From a virus: a stretch of DNA of 21,012 bases. A program made the translations under genes and the position numbers. Location: positions 1 through 21,012 of the IMG/VR virus record IMGVR_UViG_3300003885_000054. The stretch is one strand, 5' to 3'. The notes below the pieces were generated by a model. That model ran no database searches and was not told the origin of the DNA. It saw nothing but the letters and a program-made list of their open reading frames with translations. Below, piece after piece: positions 2,338 through 20,625 of the stretch. The first letter of the stretch is position 1, and each line of letters opens with the position of its first letter.

Positions 2338-3655
2338 AGATATTTATCTTTCCGCTCACGAAATTAGTGTTTGAAATCTGCGGGTTTATGGACAAAATCC
2401 GCGGTGCATAGTTATACGGCAGCCCATACATAAGACAAATCAGATGCAGCGGCGTGGGGTTATATATTTCCACCTGTATTATTTTTTCCCGCTCCAGCTT
2501 GATGATGTTTACATGCTGGAGGAGCGTCCGGGCTATGTTTTTTAGCGCTTGCATTTTCCTGGCCTGATCAATGGCGGCTTGCAGATACTCCCTGGCCGCC
2601 GCCAGTGATTTTTCTATCTGTCCCACGGTATAAATCTCCGGCATGGGTTCAGTCTTGACATAATTTCCCGCTACATCAAAGCTTTTTGTGTTTTCAACCT
2701 GGCGAACCTCCGCCCGCTCCGCCTCATCCGCGGCATACATCTCCGCCAGATCCAGGGCGGCCACCTGTGCGCCCGTAATTTGGAGGTGCTTGCGGATAGA
2801 TTCCTGGGCCGCTGTTTTGGCCTCGGAGATCTTAGTTGTAGCATTATAAGTTTCGTTGAGTTCAAGGGATTCCTCTAGGGCAGACAACCCATCCTCAAAA
2901 CTTTGGAGGAAACGCTCCGGAGCGTCCGCCAAATTTTCGTACAGAATCACGTATCTTTCGGCTGCCTTGGCGATGGCGCCTATAATCCGGCCCGGCAGGT
3001 TCACGCCATAGTCAATCGAGGCGATTAGCGAATTAGCGGGATTGGAAATAGTAGCCAGTGTCGCCTCCAGTTTGCCTTCCAATTCGCTTATTTTTCCGAC
3101 ATACGCCCGGGCAGTGGCACCTAAACCTGTGAATTGCTCCAGAATGCTTTTTCCCGGGTCCAATGTTTCTGCTGTGATAGCTTTCGCTTCCGTACCGAGA
3201 GCGATTTCCGTATCCTCGGCAAACTCATCCGCCTGCTGCTCCTGGCCATCCCCAAAGGTTGTTTCCGTCGCTCCCTTCACATCCTCCCGGTATGCGGTCT
3301 CGATATCGATCCGGAGATTTTCCACGAACGTCAGATCTATCTCCGCCAGACGTATCCGGTCATCATGCCGGATACTCGTCCGCTCAATTTTCCCTTGCAT
3401 GAGTCCATACCTGGGATGATCTAACTCCAGGAGGTCGGTTTCTTCCAGCAGGTCTATGAGGTCAAGATGCTCCTCATAATTATGATTATCGAAAAAACAA
3501 CGAAAATTTATGGTGTGGGCGCTCTGGCCCATATCTTCAAGCTCCGCCCCGTTAACGTGCGGATATTCATGCTTTATGATAGCTTTCGGGAACTCATCGG
3601 AGATGGTTTCGATCTTCAACTCGATCCCGTTTATGACGGCTTTTTCGCGTGCCAT
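2327..3655 (-). CDS. DNA circularisation protein N-like (Mu gpN/gp43)
   Basis: A 442-residue protein whose first about 115 residues fit the DNA_circ_N domain: MAREKAVINGIELKIETISD, then 'HEYPHVNGAELEDMGQ' and 'FRCFFDNHNYEEHLDLIDLL'. In Mu, gpN is a structural tail/baseplate protein; the 'DNA circularisation' name comes from older work on other phages. Residues about 125-410 are acidic and helical, Ala/Glu-rich, likely elongated coiled coil. The C-terminal ~50 residues ('PTPLHLICLMYGLPYNYAPRI') look like a compact tail. The start ATG lies 25 bases inside the end of the tape-measure gene with GAGGGG upstream. Position between tape measure and hub is the Mu order. Confidence 0.87.
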   Translation of the reverse strand: MAREKAVINGIELKIETISDEFPKAIIKHEYPHVNGAELEDMGQSAHTINFRCFFDNHNYEEHLDLIDLLEETDLLELDHPRYGLMQGKIERTSIRHDDRIRLAEIDLTFVENLRIDIETAYREDVKGATETTFGDGQEQQADEFAEDTEIALGTEAKAITAETLDPGKSILEQFTGLGATARAYVGKISELEGKLEATLATISNPANSLIASIDYGVNLPGRIIGAIAKAAERYVILYENLADAPERFLQSFEDGLSALEESLELNETYNATTKISEAKTAAQESIRKHLQITGAQVAALDLAEMYAADEAERAEVRQVENTKSFDVAGNYVKTEPMPEIYTVGQIEKSLAAAREYLQAAIDQARKMQALKNIARTLLQHVNIIKLEREKIIQVEIYNPTPLHLICLMYGLPYNYAPRILSINPQISNTNFVSGKINIYAR

Positions 3656-5412
3656 AAGGCGCCCCTCGGGATTGGTTTTACGTTCACCCGTGTATTCATA
3701 TCGTTGGTTTTGGTGGTCACCCTGCCGCGCTCCTGGTCAATCTGGATATTGAGATTGATTTTATTCTCCACCAACCGACTCTTCATATGCTCAGGCACGC
3801 CGACTAATGCCGGTGTGCCTGCTATTAAATTAGCGAGCTTATCGGTGATACCAATCCAGCGATCAATGAGGCTCCCCAAGCCATAGCCGATTGCCAGGCC
3901 GGCCCCGGCAGTCGCCAGAACTGTCCCTGTTCCAGCCGTGGCTGCAGATCCCGCCAGCGTAGCTCCCAGGCTGCCCATACTCGCTAACCTACCAAGCCAG
4001 GCGGCGGGCAAAAACGACGGCGAATTCCCTACCCAACGTAAAAGTCCTCCCGCAGTTCGGCGAGATGCCTCTCCCGCCAACACCGTTCCTGGTGTTTCAC
4101 CACCACCACCAACTCCACCTGCCGGCCAATTCGTTACAAAAACGGGCTGGACGCCGGTAACTGCTTCCACAGCTTGTCCGGCGGCAGTAAGACCAATTGT
4201 GGCGGCGGTTCCAGCCGCCACGCCGCCCAGGGATGCCCCGGAGACAGCTGCCGATAGTGATTTATTCTTCTGGGCTATTTCACCCAAGGCCGTCATCCAT
4301 TCATTTGTTTTTTTGACTACCGGCGTCAGCCACTTTAGGGCCGGCTGAAACAATTCGGCGAGGACTGACGTGGATGTACCGCTCAGAGATTCCAGTTGCT
4401 TAAAAAACCCTCGCATTCGGATGCGTAGCTTCTGTTGTAGCGACAATGAGCCTTTCATAGCATCGTTTATATTTTCATATGATCCTTCTCCTTCTGACAT
4501 GAGGGCAAAAGCTACTTGCGAACCCCGGCGGCCGAATATTTTGTCTAATATTTCCAGCTGTTTGGCTTCCCCAAGACCCTTAAGGTTTTCTTGGAGTATG
4601 TTGGTGATTTCAGCTAAATCCTTCAGGTTACCGTGGGCGTCCCGAAACGTTTTCGTTTTGGCTGCTTCCGTGAAAAATTCCCGTAAGGCCGTTCCGGCCA
4701 TGCTGGCGTCGACACCGCTCTTAGCGAGCATGGCGGACAGCGTAAACATTTCTTTTATCGGTCGCTTCAATTTTGCCATCGCCGGGGCGGCATATTTAGC
4801 GGTCTCAACTATTTCCGCCGCGCCCACCGGGGCGGCGGAGGCGGTACGTGATACCATGTCCGCCAGTTCCATGAATTCCGAGGCTTTGATGCCGAACGGG
4901 GTAGCAATGCCAATCAGCCCTTTACCTGTCTTTGCGGCATCCATGTTTTCATAGACCGCCAGTGCGGCGGAGGCGGCCGCCGCGCCTTGCTTGCCGATTA
5001 CATCGGAAACGGCTGCGCCGGATTTTAGGAGCTGCTTCTCCAGCGCCACTATCTGCGCCTGATTGAACGGCGTCCAGGCCTGGATGGTAAAGGCGGTCGA
5101 TTTTATTTTCGTTAGATTTTTTTCCAACTCCTTTGCATTCTTTGCGGCGCCAGCCATTTCCGCCCTGGCGCCTAACATTTCAGACTGCAAATTACCGGCG
5201 GCGTCCAGAGCCGGTTTCAGGGATTTCGCCAGCGTCCTGGTCCCTACCGCCGAGATCGCCGCCCATTTGAAGGATTTATTCATCCGATCAAAGGCGGCCT
5301 GCACCTCTTCACCGCCCGCCGCCAGCGACGCCAGGCGGGATTTTACCCGCCCGACCACTTGACTTAGCTGGTCAATCGCTGTAAACTTAATTGCAAGAGA
5401 GGCAACGCTCAT
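3631..5412 (-). CDS. Tail tape measure protein, TP901-type
   Basis: A 593-residue tape measure protein. The N-terminal third is helical with regular Ala/Lys spacing; about residues 95-330 contain the TP901-like core (MEL..M..TASAAPVGAAEIVETA, 'MAKSGVDASMAGTALREFF', 'IFGRRGSQVAFAL'). About 385-520 is rich in Ala and Gly and hydrophobic, suitable for membrane insertion; the last 50 residues are beta-like (INLNIQIDQERGRVTTKT). In tape measures the length sets tail length; at about 0.15 nm per residue, 593 residues would correspond to a tail of roughly 90 nm, an estimate only. The ribosome binding site is poor, suggesting coupling to the upstream chaperone extension. It overlaps the gpN start by 25 bases. 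Confidence 0.9.
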   Translation of the reverse strand: MSVASLAIKFTAIDQLSQVVGRVKSRLASLAAGGEEVQAAFDRMNKSFKWAAISAVGTRTLAKSLKPALDAAGNLQSEMLGARAEMAGAAKNAKELEKNLTKIKSTAFTIQAWTPFNQAQIVALEKQLLKSGAAVSDVIGKQGAAAASAALAVYENMDAAKTGKGLIGIATPFGIKASEFMELADMVSRTASAAPVGAAEIVETAKYAAPAMAKLKRPIKEMFTLSAMLAKSGVDASMAGTALREFFTEAAKTKTFRDAHGNLKDLAEITNILQENLKGLGEAKQLEILDKIFGRRGSQVAFALMSEGEGSYENINDAMKGSLSLQQKLRIRMRGFFKQLESLSGTSTSVLAELFQPALKWLTPVVKKTNEWMTALGEIAQKNKSLSAAVSGASLGGVAAGTAATIGLTAAGQAVEAVTGVQPVFVTNWPAGGVGGGGETPGTVLAGEASRRTAGGLLRWVGNSPSFLPAAWLGRLASMGSLGATLAGSAATAGTGTVLATAGAGLAIGYGLGSLIDRWIGITDKLANLIAGTPALVGVPEHMKSRLVENKINLNIQIDQERGRVTTKTNDMNTRVNVKPIPRGALWHAKKPS

Positions 5413-5509
5413 GATTTTTTATCTTTCTTTTTTTGCAGGCGGAATACTTTTCCTTCTGTTCGTTTATTTTGCCGGCCGAATAGCCGGCTTTTTGGGCCGC
5501 ATCCTTTGG

Positions 5510-5647
5510 CTATGGCTCCACGCGATAGGTAATCCGCTTTTCCGGGTTCGTTAGCTCTTCATAGACATCCATATAACCCTCAATCTCCTGAGGCGTCATG
5601 CCCATAATGACCTCATGAGAAAACCCAAGTTTCAGCAGGCACAACAC
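5510..5647 (-). CDS. Tail chaperone extension in an alternate frame (frameshift product candidate)
   Basis: A short open frame directly after the gp41-like gene, in its +1 (equivalently -2) frame. It reads WHKVVLCLLKLGFSHEVI, 'MGMTPQEIEGYMDVYEELT' and 'RITYRVEP' before a TAG at 5512-5510. The entry gives the part from a possible GTG at 5647, but the frame is open back to 5716, overlapping the end of the gp41-like gene by about 65 bases. Tail chaperones are commonly made as a short form and a frameshifted long form, and a hydrophobic/helical second domain followed by the tape measure is the usual layout. A GGGG run at 5708-5705 (CAA GGG GCG) allows a +1 slip. Independent initiation at GTG is less likely because the upstream AAGG is too close. 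Confidence 0.6.
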   Translation of the reverse strand: MLCLLKLGFSHEVIMGMTPQEIEGYMDVYEELTNPEKRITYRVEP

Positions 5648-5651
5648 TACC

Positions 5652-5975
5652 TTATGCCACGTCCTTTGCCGGGCTGCGAAAATTACCCAGGCGACCGTCC
5701 AGCGCCCCTTGTGCGGCTATTAATATCCGCAGGTCGTAGTCGGCCAAACCCATAAGCAGATCCGGTGTTATCTTTTCGCCGCTAAGCTGCCCCAGCCGGA
5801 CTATCTGACTTGCCAGGACACACAACCCCATGTAGTTGTCGTCAGTTTTCGACCGCTCATATTGTTCAGCGATGTCAAACGAGTCCCGCACAAACAAGGG
5901 CCGAAGCTCATATTCTTTATGCGTTTTCCCTTCATGCTCCAACCCCAACGCTAATTTGCCTTTTTCTGTGATCAT
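5652..5975 (-). CDS. Tail assembly chaperone, Mu gp41-like
   Basis: A 107-residue acidic protein whose opening 'EGKTHKEYELRPLFVRDSFD' and 'DYDLRILIAAQGALDG' segments fit the phage tail-assembly chaperone E/gp41 group. These small proteins coat the tape measure during tail polymerisation and are not in the virion. The gene starts at an ATGA overlap with the tail tube gene and precedes the tape measure gene, the invariant place for chaperones. Its last about 20 codons overlap an open +1/-2 frame that carries a second helical segment, the usual arrangement for programmed frameshifting. Stop is TAA at 5654-5652. Confidence 0.82.
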   Translation of the reverse strand: MITEKGKLALGLEHEGKTHKEYELRPLFVRDSFDIAEQYERSKTDDNYMGLCVLASQIVRLGQLSGEKITPDLLMGLADYDLRILIAAQGALDGRLGNFRSPAKDVA

Positions 5976-6337
5976 TCCTTTATCCTGTCTGCTGCGAACA
6001 GCTTTACTTCTCTGATTGCATCGCCTTCGCCATCCAGTTTCGCTCCGCCGACTTCGCTCGGATAAACGCCGGTATAAGTGTGTCGTTTCCCGGAGGGATA
6101 CTCCACAGTGAGCCTGGCATCGTTGACCGCTTCCCAGTCATATTCCGGGTCGGTGACCGGCACAATATAGTCAATTTCCATATCCTTATACCGCGCCGTC
6201 TTTTCGGCGGCGCCGGTATCATCCATCGTATCGACCGGGTCCCAAAGGCTAACGTTGGGCTCCCGGAAGCCTTTGATGCCCCTAATCCTGACGCCATTTA
6301 GCGTCAGGATTACTGTCCGTGCATATTGTTTGCTCAT
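5972..6337 (-). CDS. Tail tube protein (Mu gpM-like)
   Basis: A 121-residue protein directly after the sheath gene, with beta-rich layout expected of a contractile-tail inner tube subunit: 'ARTVILTLNGVRIRGIKGF', 'EKTARYKDMEIDYIVPVTDP' and a C-terminal 'REVKLFAADRI'. The tube polymerises inside the sheath and conducts DNA. An AGGTGAAAA ribosome site precedes the ATG. Its stop overlaps the start of the gp41-like chaperone by ATGA. Family naming follows sequence resemblance, small size and Mu gene order (sheath, tube, chaperone, tape measure). A different frame over the same bases gives an Arg/Ser-rich peptide that is a shadow. Confidence 0.85.
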   Translation of the reverse strand: MSKQYARTVILTLNGVRIRGIKGFREPNVSLWDPVDTMDDTGAAEKTARYKDMEIDYIVPVTDPEYDWEAVNDARLTVEYPSGKRHTYTGVYPSEVGGAKLDGEGDAIREVKLFAADRIKE

Positions 6338-6353
6338 TTTTCACCTCATTTTT

Positions 6354-8066
6354 TCAGCTTAGTATTAGGCCGAATTGCAGGGCGGTAACATGCAACGCCC
6401 CGACAATATCTATCGGCACATAACAATCCAGACGATTCACATCGGTCGCATTATCCTGCACTACCAATGAATCCTTGTGGACATCGACATTTTTAATGAT
6501 TTCAGCTTCTTCAAGCCGCTTCTGGCGAGCAAAGATTTCAGACCAGATCTCTTTCGTGATTCGATCGGTCTTTTTCACTCCCGTGAAACGAAGAGCTATG
6601 GCAGCCACTATGTCTTTTCTGACATAATCCAAGCCGGTTATAGTTCCGAGTTCCCGCTGGGAGGTGTCCGGGACACCCTGGTCATTTTCCGTGCGGGTAG
6701 TGACCGCCCGCACAATTTCGACCACCTCGCCGCTGTTTACCCCAAGTGGGGTTAAACCGCCCAGAAGCAGACTTTCATGCTCGGCCCTGGTGAGCCGATC
6801 CGATAGCGTCGGCGCATGCAGGTTTTTTATGTCCACGCCGTCCAGCGAGGTCACCGCATCAAATCGGGCGGCGATCATAGCGGCATATCCGGCAGCCAGC
6901 TCATATGGTATGTCCTGATACTTGCTCCCGCTGTTTTTAATAAAGGGGATATTGACCCGCCCGTGATTGACGCCGTCAGCCAGTGATATGCCCGACGCCA
7001 CCAAGCCGGTGTACCCGCTGACGCCGATGGCGCTCCGCTGTTCAACCGGACCGGAAACTTCATCCAGATGCACTTTCAGTTTCCCGAGAGCCGCAGCATC
7101 ATTATAAGGATTTACGTAGATGGTATAGTCGCCTGCGGCGGCGGCATCCGTGGCGTCATCTATGTCGGGGTCGGTAGCGCCTGAAGCCATGTCGCTAATG
7201 GCACAGGTAATGCCCAGGGCGGTCATATCATATGCCAAGGGGATTTGGTTACCTACCACGCCTCCGTTTTTGGCGGTCATGTTCACCTTACCGGCGGTTG
7301 TCTGGTCGACTGCCGGATCCGCCGGCAATTGATCCAGATAGTCAGCGATTTTGTTTTGCCAGGCGATGGCCACTTCGGCGGCGGCATCGTTTTTGGCAAT
7401 ATTTATTTCCATCATTTTCCCGCCGAGATAACCGCGGAAATATCCCGCCGCCACACAGGTGCCGGAAAATGTGTATGCTCCAGCGGAAACTACCGCCGCG
7501 CCGTCATCATCCAGCGCACAGACGAATAGCTGATACGCTTGTCCAGCGGCCAAGGCCGCCCGGGCCATCATATGCACCATCGAGCCGTAGCCTAACTTAA
7601 CAGCGGCTTCCACATCAGACCAAATTTGTGTCGGCACCTTCTCCGCTACCGTCGGGTCCGGCCAAGCCCCAAAACGCCACTCGTCATCCACTGCATGTCC
7701 GGTGGTCGCGCCAAAAGTCACGGTGACGCCATCCTCCAGCGCCTGTGCCGAGCCGGTAATATCCGTCTCAGATGACCAGGTTACGCCGCGGTCTATGGAA
7801 TACTGAAACTTGTCAGTTGCCGCGGCCACGGATATTTTCACCCAACAATTCTTTTTGGCATCGCCGGTATATGTGCCTCCGGCGGTGCAGTCATTGAGCG
7901 TCCCGCCCTGCCACCGGGCGGGTTCTATCCGCGCCTTAAGTCGCTGGCCCAGGAGCATGAGTTTCTGAATATTTTCAATGAGCGACCGGTTGGCCTTGCT
8001 GAAATCGAATTCCCCGTAGACGCCGGGGATAAGGGTATATGGAATATCATTAAAAACTATCTGCAT
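6354..8066 (-). CDS. Tail sheath protein (Mu gpL-like) with an inserted beta domain
   Basis: A 570-residue contractile-tail sheath protein. The start 'MQIVFNDIPYTLIPGVYGEFD' and 'MLLGQRLKARIEP' fit the sheath N-terminus, and the C-terminal third ('LTRAEHESLLLGGLTPLGV', 'TGLDYVRKDIVAAIALRFT', 'DCYVPIDIVGALHVTALQFG') fits the conserved handshake region. Mu gpL is about 495 residues; the surplus is explained by about 88 extra residues, 51-138, that contain 'FQYSIDRGVTWSSETDITG' and 'GVTVTFGATTGHAVDDEW'. That pattern is one I recognise from modules found in many phage tail and appendage proteins. It overlaps the preceding gp38-like stop by one base (TAATG). Likely the insertion protrudes from the sheath surface. 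Confidence 0.92.
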   Translation of the reverse strand: MQIVFNDIPYTLIPGVYGEFDFSKANRSLIENIQKLMLLGQRLKARIEPARWQGGTLNDCTAGGTYTGDAKKNCWVKISVAAATDKFQYSIDRGVTWSSETDITGSAQALEDGVTVTFGATTGHAVDDEWRFGAWPDPTVAEKVPTQIWSDVEAAVKLGYGSMVHMMARAALAAGQAYQLFVCALDDDGAAVVSAGAYTFSGTCVAAGYFRGYLGGKMMEINIAKNDAAAEVAIAWQNKIADYLDQLPADPAVDQTTAGKVNMTAKNGGVVGNQIPLAYDMTALGITCAISDMASGATDPDIDDATDAAAAGDYTIYVNPYNDAAALGKLKVHLDEVSGPVEQRSAIGVSGYTGLVASGISLADGVNHGRVNIPFIKNSGSKYQDIPYELAAGYAAMIAARFDAVTSLDGVDIKNLHAPTLSDRLTRAEHESLLLGGLTPLGVNSGEVVEIVRAVTTRTENDQGVPDTSQRELGTITGLDYVRKDIVAAIALRFTGVKKTDRITKEIWSEIFARQKRLEEAEIIKNVDVHKDSLVVQDNATDVNRLDCYVPIDIVGALHVTALQFGLILS

Positions 8067-8266
8067 TATTTACCGCCCTCCTTTCGAGGCTTCGCTGAAG
8101 GTTTTTGGTTGGTTGTTTCTAAGGGCACTTCGATCAGCGATCCTTCAGCCACCAGCCGCCGGTAATAGCTGTTGTTGGGCACATTCACGGCCTTGTCGTC
8201 GGTGATATGCTGCCCCGGTTTGCCACGCACGGGGATCTTCCCGCCTGGTATTGCTTTCATTAGCAT
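8066..8266 (-). CDS. DUF2635 small tail protein, Mu gp38-like
   Basis: A 66-residue protein with 'KAIPGGKIPVRGKPGQHI', 'VNVPNNSYYRRLVAEGSLIEV' and a Lys/Pro-rich end. The Val-Pro-x-N-x-Y-(W/Y)-RR-L-x-x-G pattern is characteristic of DUF2635, the small proteins encoded just upstream of the sheath in Mu-like phages. Function is not known; by location it belongs to the tail module. An AGGGAGG site lies seven bases before the ATG. The stop overlaps the sheath ATG by one base, implying coupled translation. Confidence 0.83.
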   Translation of the reverse strand: MLMKAIPGGKIPVRGKPGQHITDDKAVNVPNNSYYRRLVAEGSLIEVPLETTNQKPSAKPRKEGGK

Positions 8267-8278
8267 TTGTTGTCCTCC

Positions 8279-8791
8279 CTAAAGTGTTATCAAATCTTCT
8301 GAATCTTTTATTCCGTCATCCGACGGCCATTGTAAATAGTATCCTAAACCGATCTTAAAGAGATCGATGATGCTTTCTTCTTCAATTTTCGCCAGATAAT
8401 AATCTGTCTCGAAGGCCATCTGAAACACTAATATCCCGGCTACTGCCTGGTTGTCGGTAGTGATGTTGCCGAATGCTTTCGGCTTTAGGGGTTCTATCTC
8501 CAGTCCTAAGTCCTGGAGCGTGAGCGCCTCTAAAATGCCTTGCAATATTGGATAAATTCCATGTCTCCGCTGCTTTTCATTTCGCAGGTTTTTAAATTTT
8601 ATAGTCAAATAGATGTTGATCCCTACGTTAAATCCATCTAAATCCGCTTTTCTGAATTCGCCGTCCTCGATATAGACATACACCGCCGGGTTGGCCTGGC
8701 CGGTTGCGCCGGATTTTACGGCAATCTCCCGGATGGACAATCCCTGTTGTTCTAATTTGTTTATGATTTTTTCTTCTATTTCAGCAAACAG
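8279..8791 (-). CDS. Tail terminator-type protein, Mu gp37-like (DUF1834), CTG start
   Basis: The conserved part ('SIREIAVKSGATGQANPAVYVYIEDGEF'... 'IYLTIKFKNLRNEKQRRHGIYPILQGILEAL') fits DUF1834/Mu gp37, a gene placed between gp36 and the sheath and thought to act in head-tail joining. I extend the start upstream of the TTG at 8740: the frame stays open with LFAEIEEKIINKLEQQGL, which is what family N-termini look like, back to a CTG at 8791-8789. A strong AAAGGAGG (8807-8800) lies eight bases before that CTG, whereas the TTG has no usable site. This gives 170 residues. The same ribosome site sits in a small hairpin, GGAGG-CTGG-CCTCC. Stop is TAG. Confidence 0.75.
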   Translation of the reverse strand: MFAEIEEKIINKLEQQGLSIREIAVKSGATGQANPAVYVYIEDGEFRKADLDGFNVGINIYLTIKFKNLRNEKQRRHGIYPILQGILEALTLQDLGLEIEPLKPKAFGNITTDNQAVAGILVFQMAFETDYYLAKIEEESIIDLFKIGLGYYLQWPSDDGIKDSEDLITL

Positions 8792-8815
8792 GAGGCCAGC
8801 CTCCTTTCTACTTTG

Positions 8816-9274
8816 CTAATAGTTATCCAAACTCCCGGATGTGCCGTCGGAAGTTTTGCCGGTAGAAAATGTTCTATCTGCTTTTGTCCGGCTGGATTTG
8901 ATTTGCTCAGTCCCCCCGGTGGGTTCAGGAAACACACCCAGGGTGATGGTACCTTTGGAGATGCTTTCCAGCATTTTAAGTGCGTATTTATACCGCTCCT
9001 GGCGCACAGGCGGCGTTTCTTCTTCGCTCGGGCAGCGTGAGTAGAGATTATAGACGGCTATGTCGACCGATAGTTTTTTTATGACCGCAGGCACCGTTGA
9101 AAATGGTACGGTGTATCGCCCCGCGCAATAAGCATCTATTTCGGCATCGGCGTCTGCGATTGCCTCAGTAACCCGCCCCTGATCCACGATGTTAAGCCCC
9201 TCGTCATCAGTGAGTTGAACTAAGCTCTCTAGGGAGATTAACTTTTTTATGTCTGCTTCGGTTGAATATGCCAT
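8816..9274 (-). CDS. DUF1320 head-tail connector protein, Mu gp36-like
   Basis: A 152-residue protein beginning MAYSTEADIKKLISLESLVQ, then 'ADADAEIDAYCAGRYTVPFST' and 'IKKLSVDIAVYNLYSRCPSEEET'. The Y-x-T-x-x-D-(L/I), IDaYl.gRY..P and LY.R patterns identify DUF1320 (Mu gp36), which resembles head-completion/adaptor proteins that dock on the portal. The C-terminal 35 residues are Ser/Thr/Lys-rich and probably flexible. It is followed in the same frame by the gp37-like gene after a TAG stop. An interspersed palindromic repeat lies just upstream of its start region. Confidence 0.9.
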   Translation of the reverse strand: MAYSTEADIKKLISLESLVQLTDDEGLNIVDQGRVTEAIADADAEIDAYCAGRYTVPFSTVPAVIKKLSVDIAVYNLYSRCPSEEETPPVRQERYKYALKMLESISKGTITLGVFPEPTGGTEQIKSSRTKADRTFSTGKTSDGTSGSLDNY

Positions 9275-17135: not shown

Positions 17136-17410
17136 GTCCTTAAAATGAATCCTAATACGGCTATAATGACGATACAGACCAGGCCGCCCATCCAGGTCTG
17201 CTTGAATTTTCCGTTTATCTCAGCCACAACGATCTCCAGCTGATTTACCCGTTTGTTCAGGCTCTTTAGGGTTTCTGCGATGTTGACGTTGAGCCGTTTC
17301 TGTTCAGCCATATTCGCCTTCACTACTACTTCAAGGGTGCTAAATTTGTTCTCCAGGCGATAGAGACACTCCCGGGTTGAGACCGGCTTTCCTTCCTGTT
17401 CAGGAGACAT
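17132..17410 (-). CDS. XhlA-like coiled-coil protein with C-terminal membrane anchor
   Basis: A 92-residue protein: residues 10-70 are a heptad-patterned helix (CLYRLENKFSTLEVVVKAN, NIAETLKSLNKRVNQLEIVV), and 73-91 is a single hydrophobic segment (WMGGLVCIVIIAVLGFILR). This layout resembles haemolysin XhlA-type proteins that work with holin and endolysin in phage lysis cassettes. It is the last gene of the lysis group; its ATG overlaps the stop of the CxxCH protein and its TGA overlaps the next ATG, so translation is coupled through this junction. Alternatively it is a Mu gp25-like structural protein. Confidence 0.65.
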   Translation of the reverse strand: MSPEQEGKPVSTRECLYRLENKFSTLEVVVKANMAEQKRLNVNIAETLKSLNKRVNQLEIVVAEINGKFKQTWMGGLVCIVIIAVLGFILRT

Positions 17411-17784
17411 TAAATGCCCTCGGATACAGGGTTAACCGGCTTCTGCTCCGGAAAAGCCTCATCTGTGCCATTATAATGACAAGTAAGACATGTCTGAGCA
17501 ATATTCCAAATCCTGTGTTCAGGAACCGCCCGGAAGTCAGCGAAGTCTGAACGCCTGAAAAAGGTTATTGGATTAAGGTCGCTTAGCGTCACTTCGCTAG
17601 GGCTAATCGCCGGATCATCCGATAATCCAACATGGCATTCTATGCACCGCTTTCGCACAGCTTCTATGTGTTCCGGTTCTCCGATGAATGTCCTGACGTC
17701 TGAGGTTTCGCCTATAGTTCCTACAAGCCCGCCACCGCCAAAGATCACAGCTACTGCAATCGCAATCCATTCCAATGGTTCCAT
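17410..17784 (-). CDS. Predicted membrane-anchored dihaem c-type cytochrome-like protein
   Basis: A 124-residue protein with an N-terminal hydrophobic segment at about 5-24 (LEWIAIAVAVIFGGGGLVG), which should act as an uncleaved anchor or signal. Two haem-binding motifs follow: CIECH (Cys47-Cys50-His51) and CLTCH (Cys99-Cys102-His103), 52 residues apart; His39 and His90 could be distal ligands. This would put two covalently bound haems in the periplasm if the host has cytochrome c maturation machinery. The two motifs are read directly from codons, with no frameshift. It starts after AAAGGAAAT, three bases beyond the holin-like stop, and overlaps the next gene by one base. Zinc binding is an alternative reading of CxxCH pairs. 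Confidence 0.75.
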   Translation of the reverse strand: MEPLEWIAIAVAVIFGGGGLVGTIGETSDVRTFIGEPEHIEAVRKRCIECHVGLSDDPAISPSEVTLSDLNPITFFRRSDFADFRAVPEHRIWNIAQTCLTCHYNGTDEAFPEQKPVNPVSEGI

Positions 17785-17787
17785 CTT

Positions 17788-17976
17788 CTATTTCCTTTCT
17801 TGTTCAGGGCGTTTTTCCCTAGAATTAAAATAAAAAGCCATTATAGATCCGGCGATACCAATAAATGTTTCCGCCTGAATTAGCTTTCCGAAAAAGCCCG
17901 CCACAATCGCCAGGCCAAAAACCCAAGCTAAGCCTGGGCGAACCGATTTGCGTAGAAAATCAATTATATTTTCCAT
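17788..17976 (-). CDS. Holin-like small membrane protein
   Basis: A 62-residue protein with an N-terminal amphipathic/basic stretch (MENIIDFLRKSVRPG), two hydrophobic segments (LAWVFGLAIVAGFFGKL, about 16-32, and FIGIAGSIMAFYFN, about 38-51) and a charged C-terminus (SREKRPEQERK). Small size, two membrane spans, basic tail and position directly after the endolysin gene fit a phage holin, which permeabilises the inner membrane at the end of infection. It starts after GAGGGATG and is followed three bases on by the CxxCH gene. Family membership within holins cannot be told from sequence alone. Confidence 0.72.
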   Translation of the reverse strand: MENIIDFLRKSVRPGLAWVFGLAIVAGFFGKLIQAETFIGIAGSIMAFYFNSREKRPEQERK

Positions 17977-17986
17977 ATTTCATCCC

Positions 17987-18385
17987 TCATGATAAAACCT
18001 GTAAATGCAGGTGCATTCCGTTTCCGGCGCTATGGATGATGGCCGTGTGCATCTCCGGCCGCTCCGGATCATACGGCCAGGCACTGGCTATGTATCGCAG
18101 CAGCTCCGCTGTTTGTGCGGCCATGAAATCCCTGCTCCTGATATCACAGCCCCGCCCGAATTCATGTACCGACCTCCAGGGTTTCTTCCAGTATTCAGGG
18201 TTGGAGCCATAAATTGCATCCTGCTCCTCTTGTGTGCGCAACAGGTCGGTGATTAGGATGGGCTTGCCATACTTTCTGCCGACATAGAAAGCCACATCCA
18301 GGACTAAGCCCCGCAGGTGCGGCGATACCAAGGGAAACTCTTCCGACTGGCGGTTGGTTTTGAAATGAATCTCAAGCTCATCCAT
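17987..18385 (-). CDS. Endolysin, M15 peptidase (D-Ala-D-Ala carboxypeptidase-type)
   Basis: A 132-residue protein with the zinc ligands of the VanY/M15 family: His74 and Asp81 in SVHEFGRGCDIRS (H-x6-D) and His127 in the 'GNGMHLHLQV' end (HxH at 125/127), preceded by the conserved 'ILITDLLRTQEEQDAIYG' region. M15 endolysins cut peptide cross-links in peptidoglycan. There is no signal peptide, so it needs the holin next door. I chose the ATG at 18385; a TTG two codons upstream is possible and neither has a strong ribosome site. Upstream is a 175-base non-coding gap, so this may be the first gene of the late transcript. Confidence 0.85.
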   Translation of the reverse strand: MDELEIHFKTNRQSEEFPLVSPHLRGLVLDVAFYVGRKYGKPILITDLLRTQEEQDAIYGSNPEYWKKPWRSVHEFGRGCDIRSRDFMAAQTAELLRYIASAWPYDPERPEMHTAIIHSAGNGMHLHLQVLS

Positions 18386-18566: not shown

Positions 18567-18755
18567 TTATTTTCCTGGTGTTTCTCTGAAGAGATCTACG
18601 GAGGATTTGTAGATACGAATGGTGCGGCGATTGCGGTTTTGTTTCTCCATCCCTTGCAAAATCCCCTCATCGAACCAGCGCCTAACAGTATCGTCACTTA
18701 CGGCCAGTATCCTGGCTACGGTGGTGGTGCGCATAAGAATGTCTTTTTCTTCCAT
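18567..18755 (-). CDS. Small helix-turn-helix DNA-binding protein
   Basis: A 62-residue protein: MEEKDILMRTTTVARILAVS then DDTVRRWFDEGILQGMEKQ, basic linker, and 'TIRIYKSSVDLF'. Residues about 9-36 form a MerR/excisionase-type (HTH_17-like) helix-turn-helix, and 45-57 is the beta/turn seen in these small proteins. It may be an excisionase-like or transcription regulator, possibly for the late switch, since it is the last gene before the structured gap. I chose the ATG at 18755; reading from the upstream GTG (18776) would take in repeat-derived bases. The ribosome site (GGGAA) is modest. Specific target unknown. Confidence 0.72.
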   Translation of the reverse strand: MEEKDILMRTTTVARILAVSDDTVRRWFDEGILQGMEKQNRNRRTIRIYKSSVDLFRETPGK

Positions 18756-18773
18756 TTTTAAATTCCCAATTTT

Positions 18774-18846
18774 CACCGCAGAGAGCGCAAAGGTACGCGG
18801 AGAATTTTTATTCCTCTCTGTGTCCCTCTGCGTTCTCAGCGGTTAA
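18774..18846. repeat. Interspersed palindromic repeat, CGCAGAG type, copy 2
   Basis: Left arm CACCGCAGAGAGCGCAAAGG, right arm CCTCTCTGTGTCCCTCTGCG...CAGCGGTTAA, about 73 bases in all. It lies over the 3' end of the replication-like gene and just upstream of the HTH gene. The last dozen residues of the former protein (LTAENAEGHREE) are translated from the repeat, so it was inserted into, or has replaced, the original gene end. Confidence 0.85.
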
Positions 18847-19416
18847 TTTATTCGAAAATTTCTCCCCATACTGGGCAAAGGCTGTCTCCCTTAGCACTTC
18901 AGGCGTCCAGGTGCGGGCTACCGGGTATTTCCGTCTAATTTCGGCTTCGATCCGCCGTAATTCCCGCTCCTTTTCTGCCTCCGTGATACCAGCCAGCAGC
19001 TGCTCTAATTGATGCTCCATAGCGTCTTTGGGATTATCTATCGGTTCCGTTTCAGGGTTCCTAAGCTTTGGGTTATCCGTCTTTTGCGGCGGGGCGCTTG
19101 GGATATTCAGCCTGCCATATTTTTGTTTGAATCCCTTGTTCCGACGCTTGATAACTTCAGGCGTTAGTTCCAAAAGCTCCTGAACACGTTGGCGGCTCCG
19201 CAAGATTTGTTTGTCCAGGTCAACATACTCAAAATAAAGGTTAAATTTCAGTTTTGACAGTTGATAGATAGCCGTCTTTAGTTCCTCAACCGTAAACTCC
19301 TTGAGCCTTGTTTCGATTTTTGCATGCCTGGCAGGTACAAGCTTGTATTGCGTCGGGCTTTTGCCGAACGTTTCGCAGTAATATTTATAAACTTCAACAA
19401 CATGGCTTGGACTCAT
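18808..19416 (-). CDS. Phage replication-type protein with conserved helical domain
   Basis: A 202-residue protein starting at MSPSHVVEVYKYYCETFGK. Residues 1-80 fit the domain seen in phage replication proteins ('Y...FG....KL.PAR..KI..RL.E.T.EELK.AI', then DLDKQILRSRQRVQELL). The rest is charged and low-complexity with a 'ELRRIEAEIRRKYPVA' helix. The start at 19416 has AAGGAG six bases upstream and overlaps the previous gene by ATGA. It may help DNA replication or load a helicase, but this is inference. The final LTAENAEGHREE is translated from an interspersed repeat and is not likely to be original. Low conservation at the C-terminus means function cannot be fixed. Confidence 0.6.
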   Translation of the reverse strand: MSPSHVVEVYKYYCETFGKSPTQYKLVPARHAKIETRLKEFTVEELKTAIYQLSKLKFNLYFEYVDLDKQILRSRQRVQELLELTPEVIKRRNKGFKQKYGRLNIPSAPPQKTDNPKLRNPETEPIDNPKDAMEHQLEQLLAGITEAEKERELRRIEAEIRRKYPVARTWTPEVLRETAFAQYGEKFSNKLTAENAEGHREE

Positions 19417-19598
19417 CGTAATCTCCTTAAACACAAAAGGCAGGTTGTATTGTTCGGGTTGGCCCAAGTAACCACGTTGCGTTTTTTCTGCAACCCGCGA
19501 CCGCACACCGAGAATATTTTTTCCTCGAACATTCCATACTCCCTTAATAGGTGAGTTTTGCCCTTTCTCACTAAAATTAAAGCCGTTCTTGTCACCAT
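19413..19598 (-). CDS. Small H-C-C-C putative zinc protein
   Basis: A 61-residue protein with His16 (GKTHLLREYG), Cys32 (SVCGRGLQKK), Cys53 and Cys56 (NTTCLLCLRRL). This THxx...CG...W.....TCxxCL arrangement is seen in many small phage proteins with a zinc-binding fold, but I do not know a function. The gene has a strong AGGAGG site four bases before its ATG, and that site lies inside the last codons of the PQ-loop gene. Its TGA overlaps the ATG of the replication-like gene (ATGA), so the two are coupled. It is a real gene by these signals rather than a shadow of its neighbour. Confidence 0.65.
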   Translation of the reverse strand: MVTRTALILVRKGKTHLLREYGMFEEKIFSVCGRGLQKKRNVVTWANPNNTTCLLCLRRLR

Positions 19599-19600
19599 GT

Positions 19601-19846
19601 TTACCTCCTAAGCCATATCAAAATTAACAACAGACTGGTATTCGCCAGCCCGATCCAGTTCGACACAATATAGACCAGATTAAAGATATGATATGAATAT
19701 ATCTGGAGGCAGATCAGGCCGAGCCACACCAGGAATACGAACACCGGCGACAGCGCCGCTGTCCGCCTGGTGGATAGCACCCGGTAGATCTGCGGCCAAT
19801 ATGAACACTGAACTAGAATGATGCCGATGTAGCCTAATGTCTTCAT
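19601..19846 (-). CDS. PQ-loop / SemiSWEET-like membrane protein
   Basis: An 81-residue protein with three hydrophobic segments (about 3-23, 32-50, 56-78). The motif 'YWPQIYRVLSTRRTAALSP' carries the Pro18-Gln19 of PQ-loop proteins, followed by the 'LS' turn, and 'IVSNWIGLANTSLLLI' fits the third helix with its Asn. This layout is that of SemiSWEET/MtN3-type proteins, which dimerise to transport sugars or other small solutes. I chose the second ATG (19846) since GAGG is seven bases upstream; the first ATG is too close to it. A host-membrane function is likely, but the substrate cannot be told. Confidence 0.72.
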   Translation of the reverse strand: MKTLGYIGIILVQCSYWPQIYRVLSTRRTAALSPVFVFLVWLGLICLQIYSYHIFNLVYIVSNWIGLANTSLLLILIWLRR

Positions 19847-19855
19847 GTTCATTCC

Positions 19856-20059
19856 TCACTGAAGGTCGGCAGATACATGGTGAATGTTCACACCGGCAGC
19901 TTTAGCCAGCTGGAGTTCTTCTACTATCCGCACGCCTTGGTCGCACCTTTGGCAGCCATCGGCATTGAATGCCTGATATGCCATGCATTGCCGCTTGGCC
20001 ATCCGGCCGAAATAGCGTCCACAGATGAAAAATGGATCATAATTTATCTGCTTTTTCAT
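19856..20059 (-). CDS. Small four-cysteine putative zinc protein
   Basis: A 67-residue protein, MKKQINYDPFFICGRYFGRM then AKRQCMAYQAFNADGCQRCD, with Cys13, Cys25, Cys36 and Cys39 spaced as in a zinc ribbon-like fold, followed by a helical end. It overlaps the GemA-like gene by 23 bases and is followed by the PQ-loop gene nine bases on. GGGGAA precedes the ATG. In Mu the translational regulator Com is a small zinc protein, but Com is not recognisably similar. Function unknown; nucleic-acid binding or a regulatory role is possible. Confidence 0.62.
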   Translation of the reverse strand: MKKQINYDPFFICGRYFGRMAKRQCMAYQAFNADGCQRCDQGVRIVEELQLAKAAGVNIHHVSADLQ

Positions 20060-20516
20060 GACGTTCCCCGCGGCCTCCGGCCAGAATAGCCTTTAGGGTT
20101 TCTATTAAGCGGCTGGCCTCCTTTTTTGTCAGCAAGTGGATTTTTTTGGGTTTCCCTCGGGTAATTCGCTTGGCAATAAATCCGCTCAATCTATCAGGGT
20201 TGGTATGCCACCCCAAACATTCCTCCAACTCCTGGATCTTCAGCTTTTGGTTGGTAGTAGTCAGCCAGATGACGTTGCTATCTTCCGGCCGGGGTTTTGT
20301 CCGTTTCCGGCGCGGATATTTAGGTTTGTAGCCGAGTTGTTTTAGGTGTCCATACAGCTTTTCTGCCTGGGCATAGGAAAGTTCCGTACAGCTTTTTGCC
20401 TTGAATTGCATCCACAGAACGTCACGGTATCGCTCATCTCCTTGTTTTGTTATTAGCCCCAATGCTTGAGCGGCAATATGTATTTTAGCTTTCTGAGTGT
20501 TATCACAAAATCTCAT
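20037..20516 (-). CDS. GemA / Mu gp16-family regulatory protein
   Basis: A 159-residue basic protein with the landmarks of the GemA/gp16 family (DUF1018): 'KAKIHIAAQALGLITKQGDE', 'YRDVLWMQFKAKSCTELSYA', 'LYGHLKQLGYKPK', and a second helical part with 'WHTNPDRLSGFIAKRI' and 'LLTKKEASRLIETLKAIL'. In Mu, GemA modulates host gene expression and DNA topology early in infection. The start at 20516 has AAGGAGG five bases upstream. The repeat at 20538-20625 is just upstream. The gene marks the window's right part as the early region of a Mu-like phage. Confidence 0.85.
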   Translation of the reverse strand: MRFCDNTQKAKIHIAAQALGLITKQGDERYRDVLWMQFKAKSCTELSYAQAEKLYGHLKQLGYKPKYPRRKRTKPRPEDSNVIWLTTTNQKLKIQELEECLGWHTNPDRLSGFIAKRITRGKPKKIHLLTKKEASRLIETLKAILAGGRGERHEKADKL

Positions 20517-20537: not shown

Positions 20538-20625
20538 TTAACCACTGAGTGCACAGAGGTGCACAGAGAAAACATTGAAACATTTCTACTTTTTTCTCTG
20601 TGGTCTCCGTGTTCTCTGTGGTTTA
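20538..20625. repeat. Interspersed palindromic repeat, ACAGAG type, copy 3
   Basis: Left arm TTAACCACTGAGTGCACAGA (20538-20557) continuing GGTGCACAGAG, right arm CTCTGTGGTCTCCGTGTTCT then CTGTGGTTTA (20595 on). This copy follows the CACAGAG variant of the same pattern. It fills the gap between the two tiny cysteine-containing genes and the GemA-like gene. Translation across it in one frame gives a spurious His/Arg-rich peptide, so it should not be annotated as coding. Confidence 0.85.

Follow-up and report, generated by a model that had tools for sequence, protein, structure and literature searches.

The window, the whole stretch of 21,012 bases analyzed here, corresponds in full to contig C2 of the home genome (2.57 Mb in 502 contigs, 88% complete). 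Its minus strand encodes most of a Mu-like contractile phage, and the Mu-like nature assigned in the preliminary description was borne out by matches to the GemA, Mu portal, Mu F, Gp45, GpP-like and sheath C-terminal families, together with a tape-measure family. The major head protein belongs to PHROG 1005 and is 38% identical to its counterparts in Pseudomonas B3-like phages. The window is truncated at its right end, and transposition genes are not in view within it.

Organization of the gemA region

An 81-residue single-repeat PQ-loop membrane protein is encoded on the minus strand at 19601..19846, as defined by the ORF list, Pfam, profile comparisons and an AlphaFold2 model. The open reading frame spans 19601-19852 and has two possible ATG start codons, at 19852 and 19846. 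A GAGGA sequence lies six bases upstream of the ATG at 19846 but directly abuts the one at 19852. Because of this spacing, the upstream start, which would add the two codons at 19847..19852, is less likely, and the ATG at 19846 is the better choice.

The gene is third in a tightly packed minus-strand set that starts with gemA (20037..20516; Mu GemA family, 63.8 bits with Pfam GemA against a cut-off of 27), followed by the genes for a 67-residue Cys-containing protein (19856..20059), the PQ-loop protein, a 61-residue protein (19413..19598) and a 202-residue protein with a weak replication-initiator-like match (18808..19416; phrog_18020, E 0.024). All are connected by overlaps and near-contacts. 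gemA overlaps the 67-residue gene by 23 nucleotides, the stop codon of the latter is 3 nucleotides from the first possible PQ-loop ATG, the PQ-loop gene is joined to the 61-residue gene by AGG-AGG-TAA-AC-ATG, and the 61-residue gene overlaps the 202-residue gene by ATGA. The preliminary description had placed the ribosome site of the next gene inside the last codons of the PQ-loop gene, which is exactly right: the AGGAGG at 19604..19609 (minus strand) constitutes its last two (Arg-Arg) codons. The location among small genes with coupled translation, also noted there, agrees with the packing directly after gemA. We infer an early timing from the position after gemA only.

Both genes flanking the PQ-loop gene encode several Cys residues. 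These 67- and 61-residue proteins could not be assigned to a family in Pfam, PHROGs (E under 0.2) or PADLOC, and their genes may belong to the same cargo as the PQ-loop gene. Further along the minus strand lie the genes for a small helix-turn-helix protein (18567..18776; Pfam HTH_17, 32.1 bits against a cut-off of 27), a probable endolysin (17987..18385) and a 62-residue hydrophobic protein (17788..17976) with weak PHROG holin matches (E 0.06-0.11). The endolysin was recognized by eye from an HxxGxxxD...HLH motif, which we take to be M15-peptidase-like, and had no Pfam family above the cut-off.

The gene had also been described as a stable operon member, with a survey of the same slot in Mu-like prophages suggested as a check. 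Searches for gemA in 97 and 386 genomes gave 22 further matches beyond that of the window. Two of these fell below the Pfam cut-off, and none of the 22 had a PQ-loop protein nearby. Six-frame segments around these matches, mostly 1.5 kb on each side, scored at most 7.2 bits with three PQ-loop profiles, which gave 163.6, 40.0 and 34.7 bits on the window's own locus. A related viral contig (50% capsid identity) stops before the slot. A conserved slot in Mu-like prophages was therefore rejected; stable membership of an operon holds for the packing in this phage, but not across phages.

A paralogue in the home genome

The home genome encodes a paralogue of the same length and 57% identity on contig C45 (2393-2638). 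It has Ala-Gln in place of Pro-Gln, lacking the hinge proline, and reaches 20.9 bits with the Pfam PQ-loop family, just below the cut-off of 22. The two genes agree at 47, 64 and 37 of 81 first, second and third codon positions, respectively, with dN 0.37 and a saturated dS of 2.19. There is purifying selection between the two home copies. The codon-position pattern contradicts the idea that the open reading frame is a decaying or chance one without function; this idea would fit the lack of a conserved slot in other gemA loci, but it also conflicts with the Pfam PQ-loop score and the translational coupling on both sides, and we consider it extremely improbable.

A profile built from four rows revealed no third close copy among the 386 genomes (home genome included). 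This profile gave 131.4 and 129.1 bits for the two home copies, scores that are built in, as both are rows of the profile, and at most 35.5 bits for everything else.

The paralogue lies among tail- and contractile-injection-like genes, not beside gemA. Four bases after it begins a short gene. This gene resembles (63% identity) the first 63 residues of a tube-like protein encoded at the far end of C45; the latter protein reaches 34.8 bits with the contractile-injection tube family, for which the cut-off is 27. Ahead of the paralogue are a 220-residue gene and one that is DUF6519-like, its 19.8 bits falling below the cut-off of 22.4. No sheath gene was seen on the contig. At 2643-7091, C45 also carries three tandem, overlapping phage-integrase (tyrosine recombinase) genes (Pfam 96.5, 78.0 and 119.9 bits; cut-off 27.1), presumably a recombinase-in-trio-like arrangement, lying between two relatives of the contractile-injection tube family, one short and one full-length on the opposite strand.

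Family membership of the window protein

The protein had been described as a three-helix protein with a PQ motif and an LS turn, and we found Pro18-Gln19, Leu32-Ser33 and three predicted helices. The PQ-loop relationship is supported by several comparisons. Scanned as 83 residues, the protein reached 32.9 bits with the Pfam PQ-loop family (PF04193; cut-off 22). With a SemiSWEET profile derived from 14 cellular proteins, the score was 34.0 bits, compared with 11.4 for the best of 2,000 shuffles, and profile-profile matching gave E 1.5e-10 for SemiSWEET and E 6.9e-14 for the viral family described below. The LAB_N score (PF07578, 8.5 bits) is at chance level, as shuffles reach 10.2 bits. Among solved structures, the best phmmer matches were SemiSWEETs, with 4qnc aligned ungapped over 72 residues at E 3.2e-4.

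In this alignment, from which the 4qnc numbering was worked out, Pro18-Gln19 corresponds to Pro19-Gln20, Tyr50 to Tyr51, Asn56 to Asp57 and Asn63 to Asn64. Leu47 aligns with Trp48, which we take to be the pocket Trp of SemiSWEET; the paralogue likewise has Leu at this position, and nearly all viral rows aligned have Phe. Thus, the protein shares with SemiSWEETs (4qnc, 4x5n) a single repeat, the PQ hinge, the gate Tyr, the pocket Asn and a near full-length alignment, but differs from them in this Leu and in its low scores with the NCBIfam SemiSWEET models NF037967 and NF037968 (23.0 against 200 bits and, for SemiSWEET_2, 26.8 against 80 bits). Cellular SemiSWEETs of the same class and order are 27-31% identical to it. 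According to passages of PMC5742349, the Pro is a flexible hinge in SWEETs and SemiSWEETs, the Gln is kept only in SemiSWEETs, and Asn64 of the Leptospira SemiSWEET hydrogen-bonds glucose; AtSWEET1 W176 is covered there as well.

In its strict sense, the SemiSWEET label of the preliminary description is not supported, given the SemiSWEET_2 score, the Leu at the Trp48 position and close homologues without Pro-Gln. Loss of Pro-Gln in homologues had been named there as evidence against this reading, and it was found, as Ala-Gln in the paralogue and as Pro-Thr in viral relatives. This weakens membership in SemiSWEET, but not the PQ-loop relationship. On sequence grounds, the protein is best described as a divergent PQ-loop protein whose best matches are viral, and this description replaces the label "SemiSWEET transporter."

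A phylum-level search around the home genome reached nine genomes, the home one counted. The home genome itself, at 88% completeness, has neither a match to the SemiSWEET family PF03083 nor one to LAB_N at E 0.001, and an origin from a host SemiSWEET or LAB_N gene in that genome was rejected. A single weak SemiSWEET match (E 0.8) came from plasmids.

Predicted structure

An AlphaFold2 model computed from 34 rows predicts helices at residues 2-24, 34-53 and 57-80 (mean pLDDT 88.3, pTM 0.75). On the Kyte-Doolittle scale, only helices 2 and 3 exceed 1.6. Helix 1 peaks at 0.94, and just 1 of 29 cellular rows is lower. The eight best PDB chains returned by Foldseek for the model are all SemiSWEETs, none of them at a significant E-value (best 0.27). 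VIA-align gave Z 8-9.5 for complex I subunits, Mrp and the KDEL receptor, Z 6.6 over 78 residues for a eukaryotic SWEET and Z 6.2-6.6 over 52-54 residues for SemiSWEETs, so that unrelated helical bundles rank above the SemiSWEETs. The model of a Melnitz-like homologue (pLDDT 85.4) had no significant PDB match, with SWEETs and SemiSWEETs among its matches, although not at the top.

Fold matches in BFVD (E 0.04-0.74) included entries labeled "SemiSWEET, PQLC" (Myoviridae sp. ctrf010) and "PQ loop repeat protein" (Virus NIOZ-UU159) and a CBU-0592-like entry (Pseudomonas phage PA5oct). These are small virus-encoded membrane proteins of similar predicted fold, their likeness to the window protein consisting of fold matches only. 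Because BFVD already carries the first two labels for viral entries, virus-borne PQ-loop proteins are not new as such. Among the papers listed in literature searches, titles and abstract openings showed none on a phage-encoded PQ-loop or SemiSWEET member.

Viral relatives

With an E limit of 10, a search of 50,697 phage records returned seven matches to the window protein. Synechococcus phage BUCT-ZZ01 was the best (37% identity, E 6e-6), four were Melnitz phages with 35% identity at E 0.03, and the other two were at chance level (E 9). The seven records are 83-158 kb long, and since the Mu genome is far smaller, they do not look Mu-like. Both BUCT-ZZ01 and Melnitz belong to the Kyanoviridae and have large genomes (141-156 kb). 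The BUCT-ZZ01 protein (UTS52041.1; the best raw pairwise score among 48 sequences compared) and the Melnitz-like family, annotated "hypothetical protein," share with the window protein its length, three helices, Trp41-x-Gly-Leu and the helix-3 Tyr-Ile-Val-Ser-Asn, at identities of 37% and up to 42%, respectively. They differ from it in having Pro-Thr for Pro-Gln and, in Melnitz-like rows, Arg for Tyr50, and both the BUCT-ZZ01 and Melnitz proteins fall below the Pfam PQ-loop and MtN3 cut-offs. At 5977-9039 of the BUCT-ZZ01 locus (L013), the PQ-loop-like gene is immediately followed by a 7-deazaguanine-type cluster, whose genes are annotated as QueE, phosphoribosyltransferase, 6-carboxytetrahydropterin synthase and GTP cyclohydrolase I.

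In IMG/VR, the Melnitz protein had 130 relatives, of which 80 were kept. A four-row alignment used against viral contigs confirmed 117 of 210 candidates, with up to 42% identity to the window protein among the 80 kept. Against genomes, it confirmed 0 of 121 candidates, in a scan whose peptide patterns differed in part from those of the viral one and that may have omitted home-genome records. Nothing was confirmed in scans of genomes and viral contigs with the window protein, or of viral contigs with the paralogue, the pair or the BUCT-ZZ01 protein; these are weak negatives, as near-exact peptides were required. The combined 128 locus ids gave 96 stretches after removal of contained ones, among which partial overlaps may persist. 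Pro-Thr and Tyr-x-Val-Ser-Asn are present in 96 of 96 stretches, a uniformity that is partly built in, since both scans seek peptides near their queries. The window protein has Pro-Gln at the helix 1 position of this Pro-Thr. It scored 40.0 bits with the profile of the viral branch (best of 2,000 shuffles, 10.1). Both this score, set against the 34.0 bits of the SemiSWEET profile, and the profile-profile E-values favor the viral branch, but the viral profile consists of near-identical rows, so that the comparison is not a level one.

Raw pairwise scores to the window protein were higher for 11 viral rows (best 127, median 112) than for 29 cellular rows (best 108, median 78). By shuffle z-score, the medians were 14.4 and 8.9 and the best values 17.4 and 16.7 for viral and cellular rows, respectively; for the paralogue, the best cellular row (16.5) was level with the best viral one (16.4). 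In the tree, the starred branch (96/96) holds 26 core SemiSWEETs without the home pair (the window protein and its paralogue), and three other cellular rows are outside it too. With few columns available, neither the grouping of the home pair with viruses (p-AU 0.53) nor that with core SemiSWEETs (p-AU 0.44) was rejected.

Two odd cellular proteins, L206 and L207, reached z 14.2-16.7 to the home pair, for whose members the best viral row had 17.4 and 16.4. These z-scores go against a purely viral kinship of the home pair, and L206 and L207 could be the cellular branch nearest to it. Found in genomes G136 and G273, they are PQ-loop proteins of the form SYIPQL...FSPWF encoded near a PAPS-reductase-domain gene and lie outside the SemiSWEET core in the tree.

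These data bear on whether the phage recently acquired an ordinary host SemiSWEET that acts as a true sugar facilitator. Such an origin would account for the full-length match to the SemiSWEET profile, and the p-AU of 0.44 is compatible with it. The home genome, however, has no PF03083 match at the threshold given above, the NCBIfam cut-offs are missed and the Trp is missing. Viral rows also outscore cellular ones, a point tempered by the close best z-scores, and the starred branch unites the 26 core rows without the window protein. We consider recent acquisition of a host SemiSWEET distinctly unlikely.

Proposed role as a solute carrier

Proteins with one PQ-loop repeat count among the smallest solute carriers known. 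The likeliest role of the PQ-loop gene, to which we give about an even chance, is that of early cargo whose product works in pairs to carry a small solute. Located in the early set of the Mu-like contractile-tailed (pro)phage, this cargo gene would then produce a divergent single-repeat PQ-loop protein that inserts into the inner membrane as three helices, with the N terminus out and the C terminus in. This topology is suggested by the charges, because three Arg residues lie where helix 1 ends and in loop 1, and two in the tail, whereas loop 2 has no charge. By analogy with SemiSWEETs, two copies might pair, Pro18 could serve as a hinge that lets the pair alternate between two openings, and a small solute may pass Asn63. 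The membrane topology, the pairing, the transport activity, the timing and any advantage for the phage are all inferred. The substrate is probably not the usual hexose, because the aligned Trp is gone, and no neighboring metabolic gene points to a substrate.

A paired half-transporter is favored by the retention of the hinge Pro, gate Tyr and pocket Asn and by the purifying selection between the home copies. Against it stand the wide margins by which the NCBIfam cut-offs are missed, the absent Trp, the weakly hydrophobic helix 1, the lack of a significant Foldseek E-value and the higher VIA-align ranks of unrelated bundles. The paralogue has no hinge Pro, and transport may therefore not be the function common to both copies. 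Together with the viral company of the protein, this leaves room for a role in lysis or exclusion.

Class I holins have three helices, an N-out/C-in topology and a basic tail, and the PQ-loop protein could be a lysis protein (holin or pinholin) built on a PQ-loop fold with the same features. The gene order of Melnitz raised this idea: in methylophage Melnitz-3, the homologue starts about 200 nucleotides after a GH108 lysin gene, with one small gene between, and in the window the probable endolysin is about 1.2 kb downstream of the PQ-loop gene. A wider survey weakened the idea, because GH108 was found within 400 nucleotides upstream in only 15 of the 82 viral stretches with at least 1 kb of upstream sequence, and anywhere in 21 of 96, using a profile of four rows of which one is a 1-residue and one a 41-residue fragment. 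Moreover, the Melnitz authors propose the CsgGF pore of the phage as the pinholin-like part, and in the window the 62-residue hydrophobic gene adjoining the endolysin is a better-placed holin candidate, whereas the PQ-loop gene sits with gemA and not with late lysis genes. No PHROG lysis family matches the protein, the only match being phrog_25992, of unknown function (E 0.33). A lysis function thus seems quite improbable.

Superinfection exclusion or membrane protection appears unlikely. As a small early inner-membrane protein, the product would block the passage of DNA or of the tail tube of related contractile particles; the T4 exclusion protein Imm acts in this way. The early-region position is consistent with such a role, as is the absence of the gene from other gemA loci, which is expected of accessory genes. 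The closest relatives seen also lie in or beside contractile-tail elements, namely this Mu-like phage with a sheath gene, Kyanoviridae phages, which we take to be contractile-tailed, and a contig with contractile-injection tube-like genes. This link, however, comprises few independent cases and includes C45, where no sheath gene was seen. No match to exclusion proteins was obtained in Pfam, PHROGs or NCBIfam, except for a chance-level TraS entry-exclusion match of the BUCT-ZZ01 protein (E 0.033, below the cut-off), and a PADLOC scan of the window, paralogue, BUCT-ZZ01 and Melnitz proteins matched no family up to E 1. The conserved Pro and Asn resemble features of transporters.

A broader reading, which we hold to be rather unlikely, is that a virus-borne PQ-loop branch is common to the Mu-like phage, the Kyanoviridae phages and the phage-tail-like injection locus. 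In this branch, the hinge would drift (Pro-Gln, Pro-Thr, Ala-Gln) while the Trp-x-Gly-Leu and Tyr-Ile-x-Ser-Asn core is kept, and its members would no longer carry sugar but serve contractile particles, for instance as a gate in the inner membrane, or as its safeguard, at the time of injection or release. If true, such a branch with altered hinge and pocket would show which residues are dispensable and would provide a recurrent "hypothetical" protein of Melnitz-like phages with a function open to testing.

Other features of the window

Just upstream of gemA, positions 20540-20623 form an imperfect palindrome, with 74% identity to the reverse complement of the same stretch (E 3.4e-5). CTCTGTG-like words within it, and a look-alike stretch near 18770-18845, were noticed by eye; a repeat search with a 16-base minimum reported neither stretch.

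Just beyond the holin-like gene, the minus strand at 17410-17784 encodes a 124-residue protein that has a hydrophobic stretch in its N-terminal part and contains the haem-type CxxCH motif twice (CIECH and CLTCH). Its Pfam cytochrome matches are weak and under the cut-offs (E 0.02-0.13). Searched against the 50,697 phage records, it had no match at E 1 or lower, and among 97 genomes only the home copy was found. Should it prove to be a dihaem cytochrome, its presence in a phage would be unusual.
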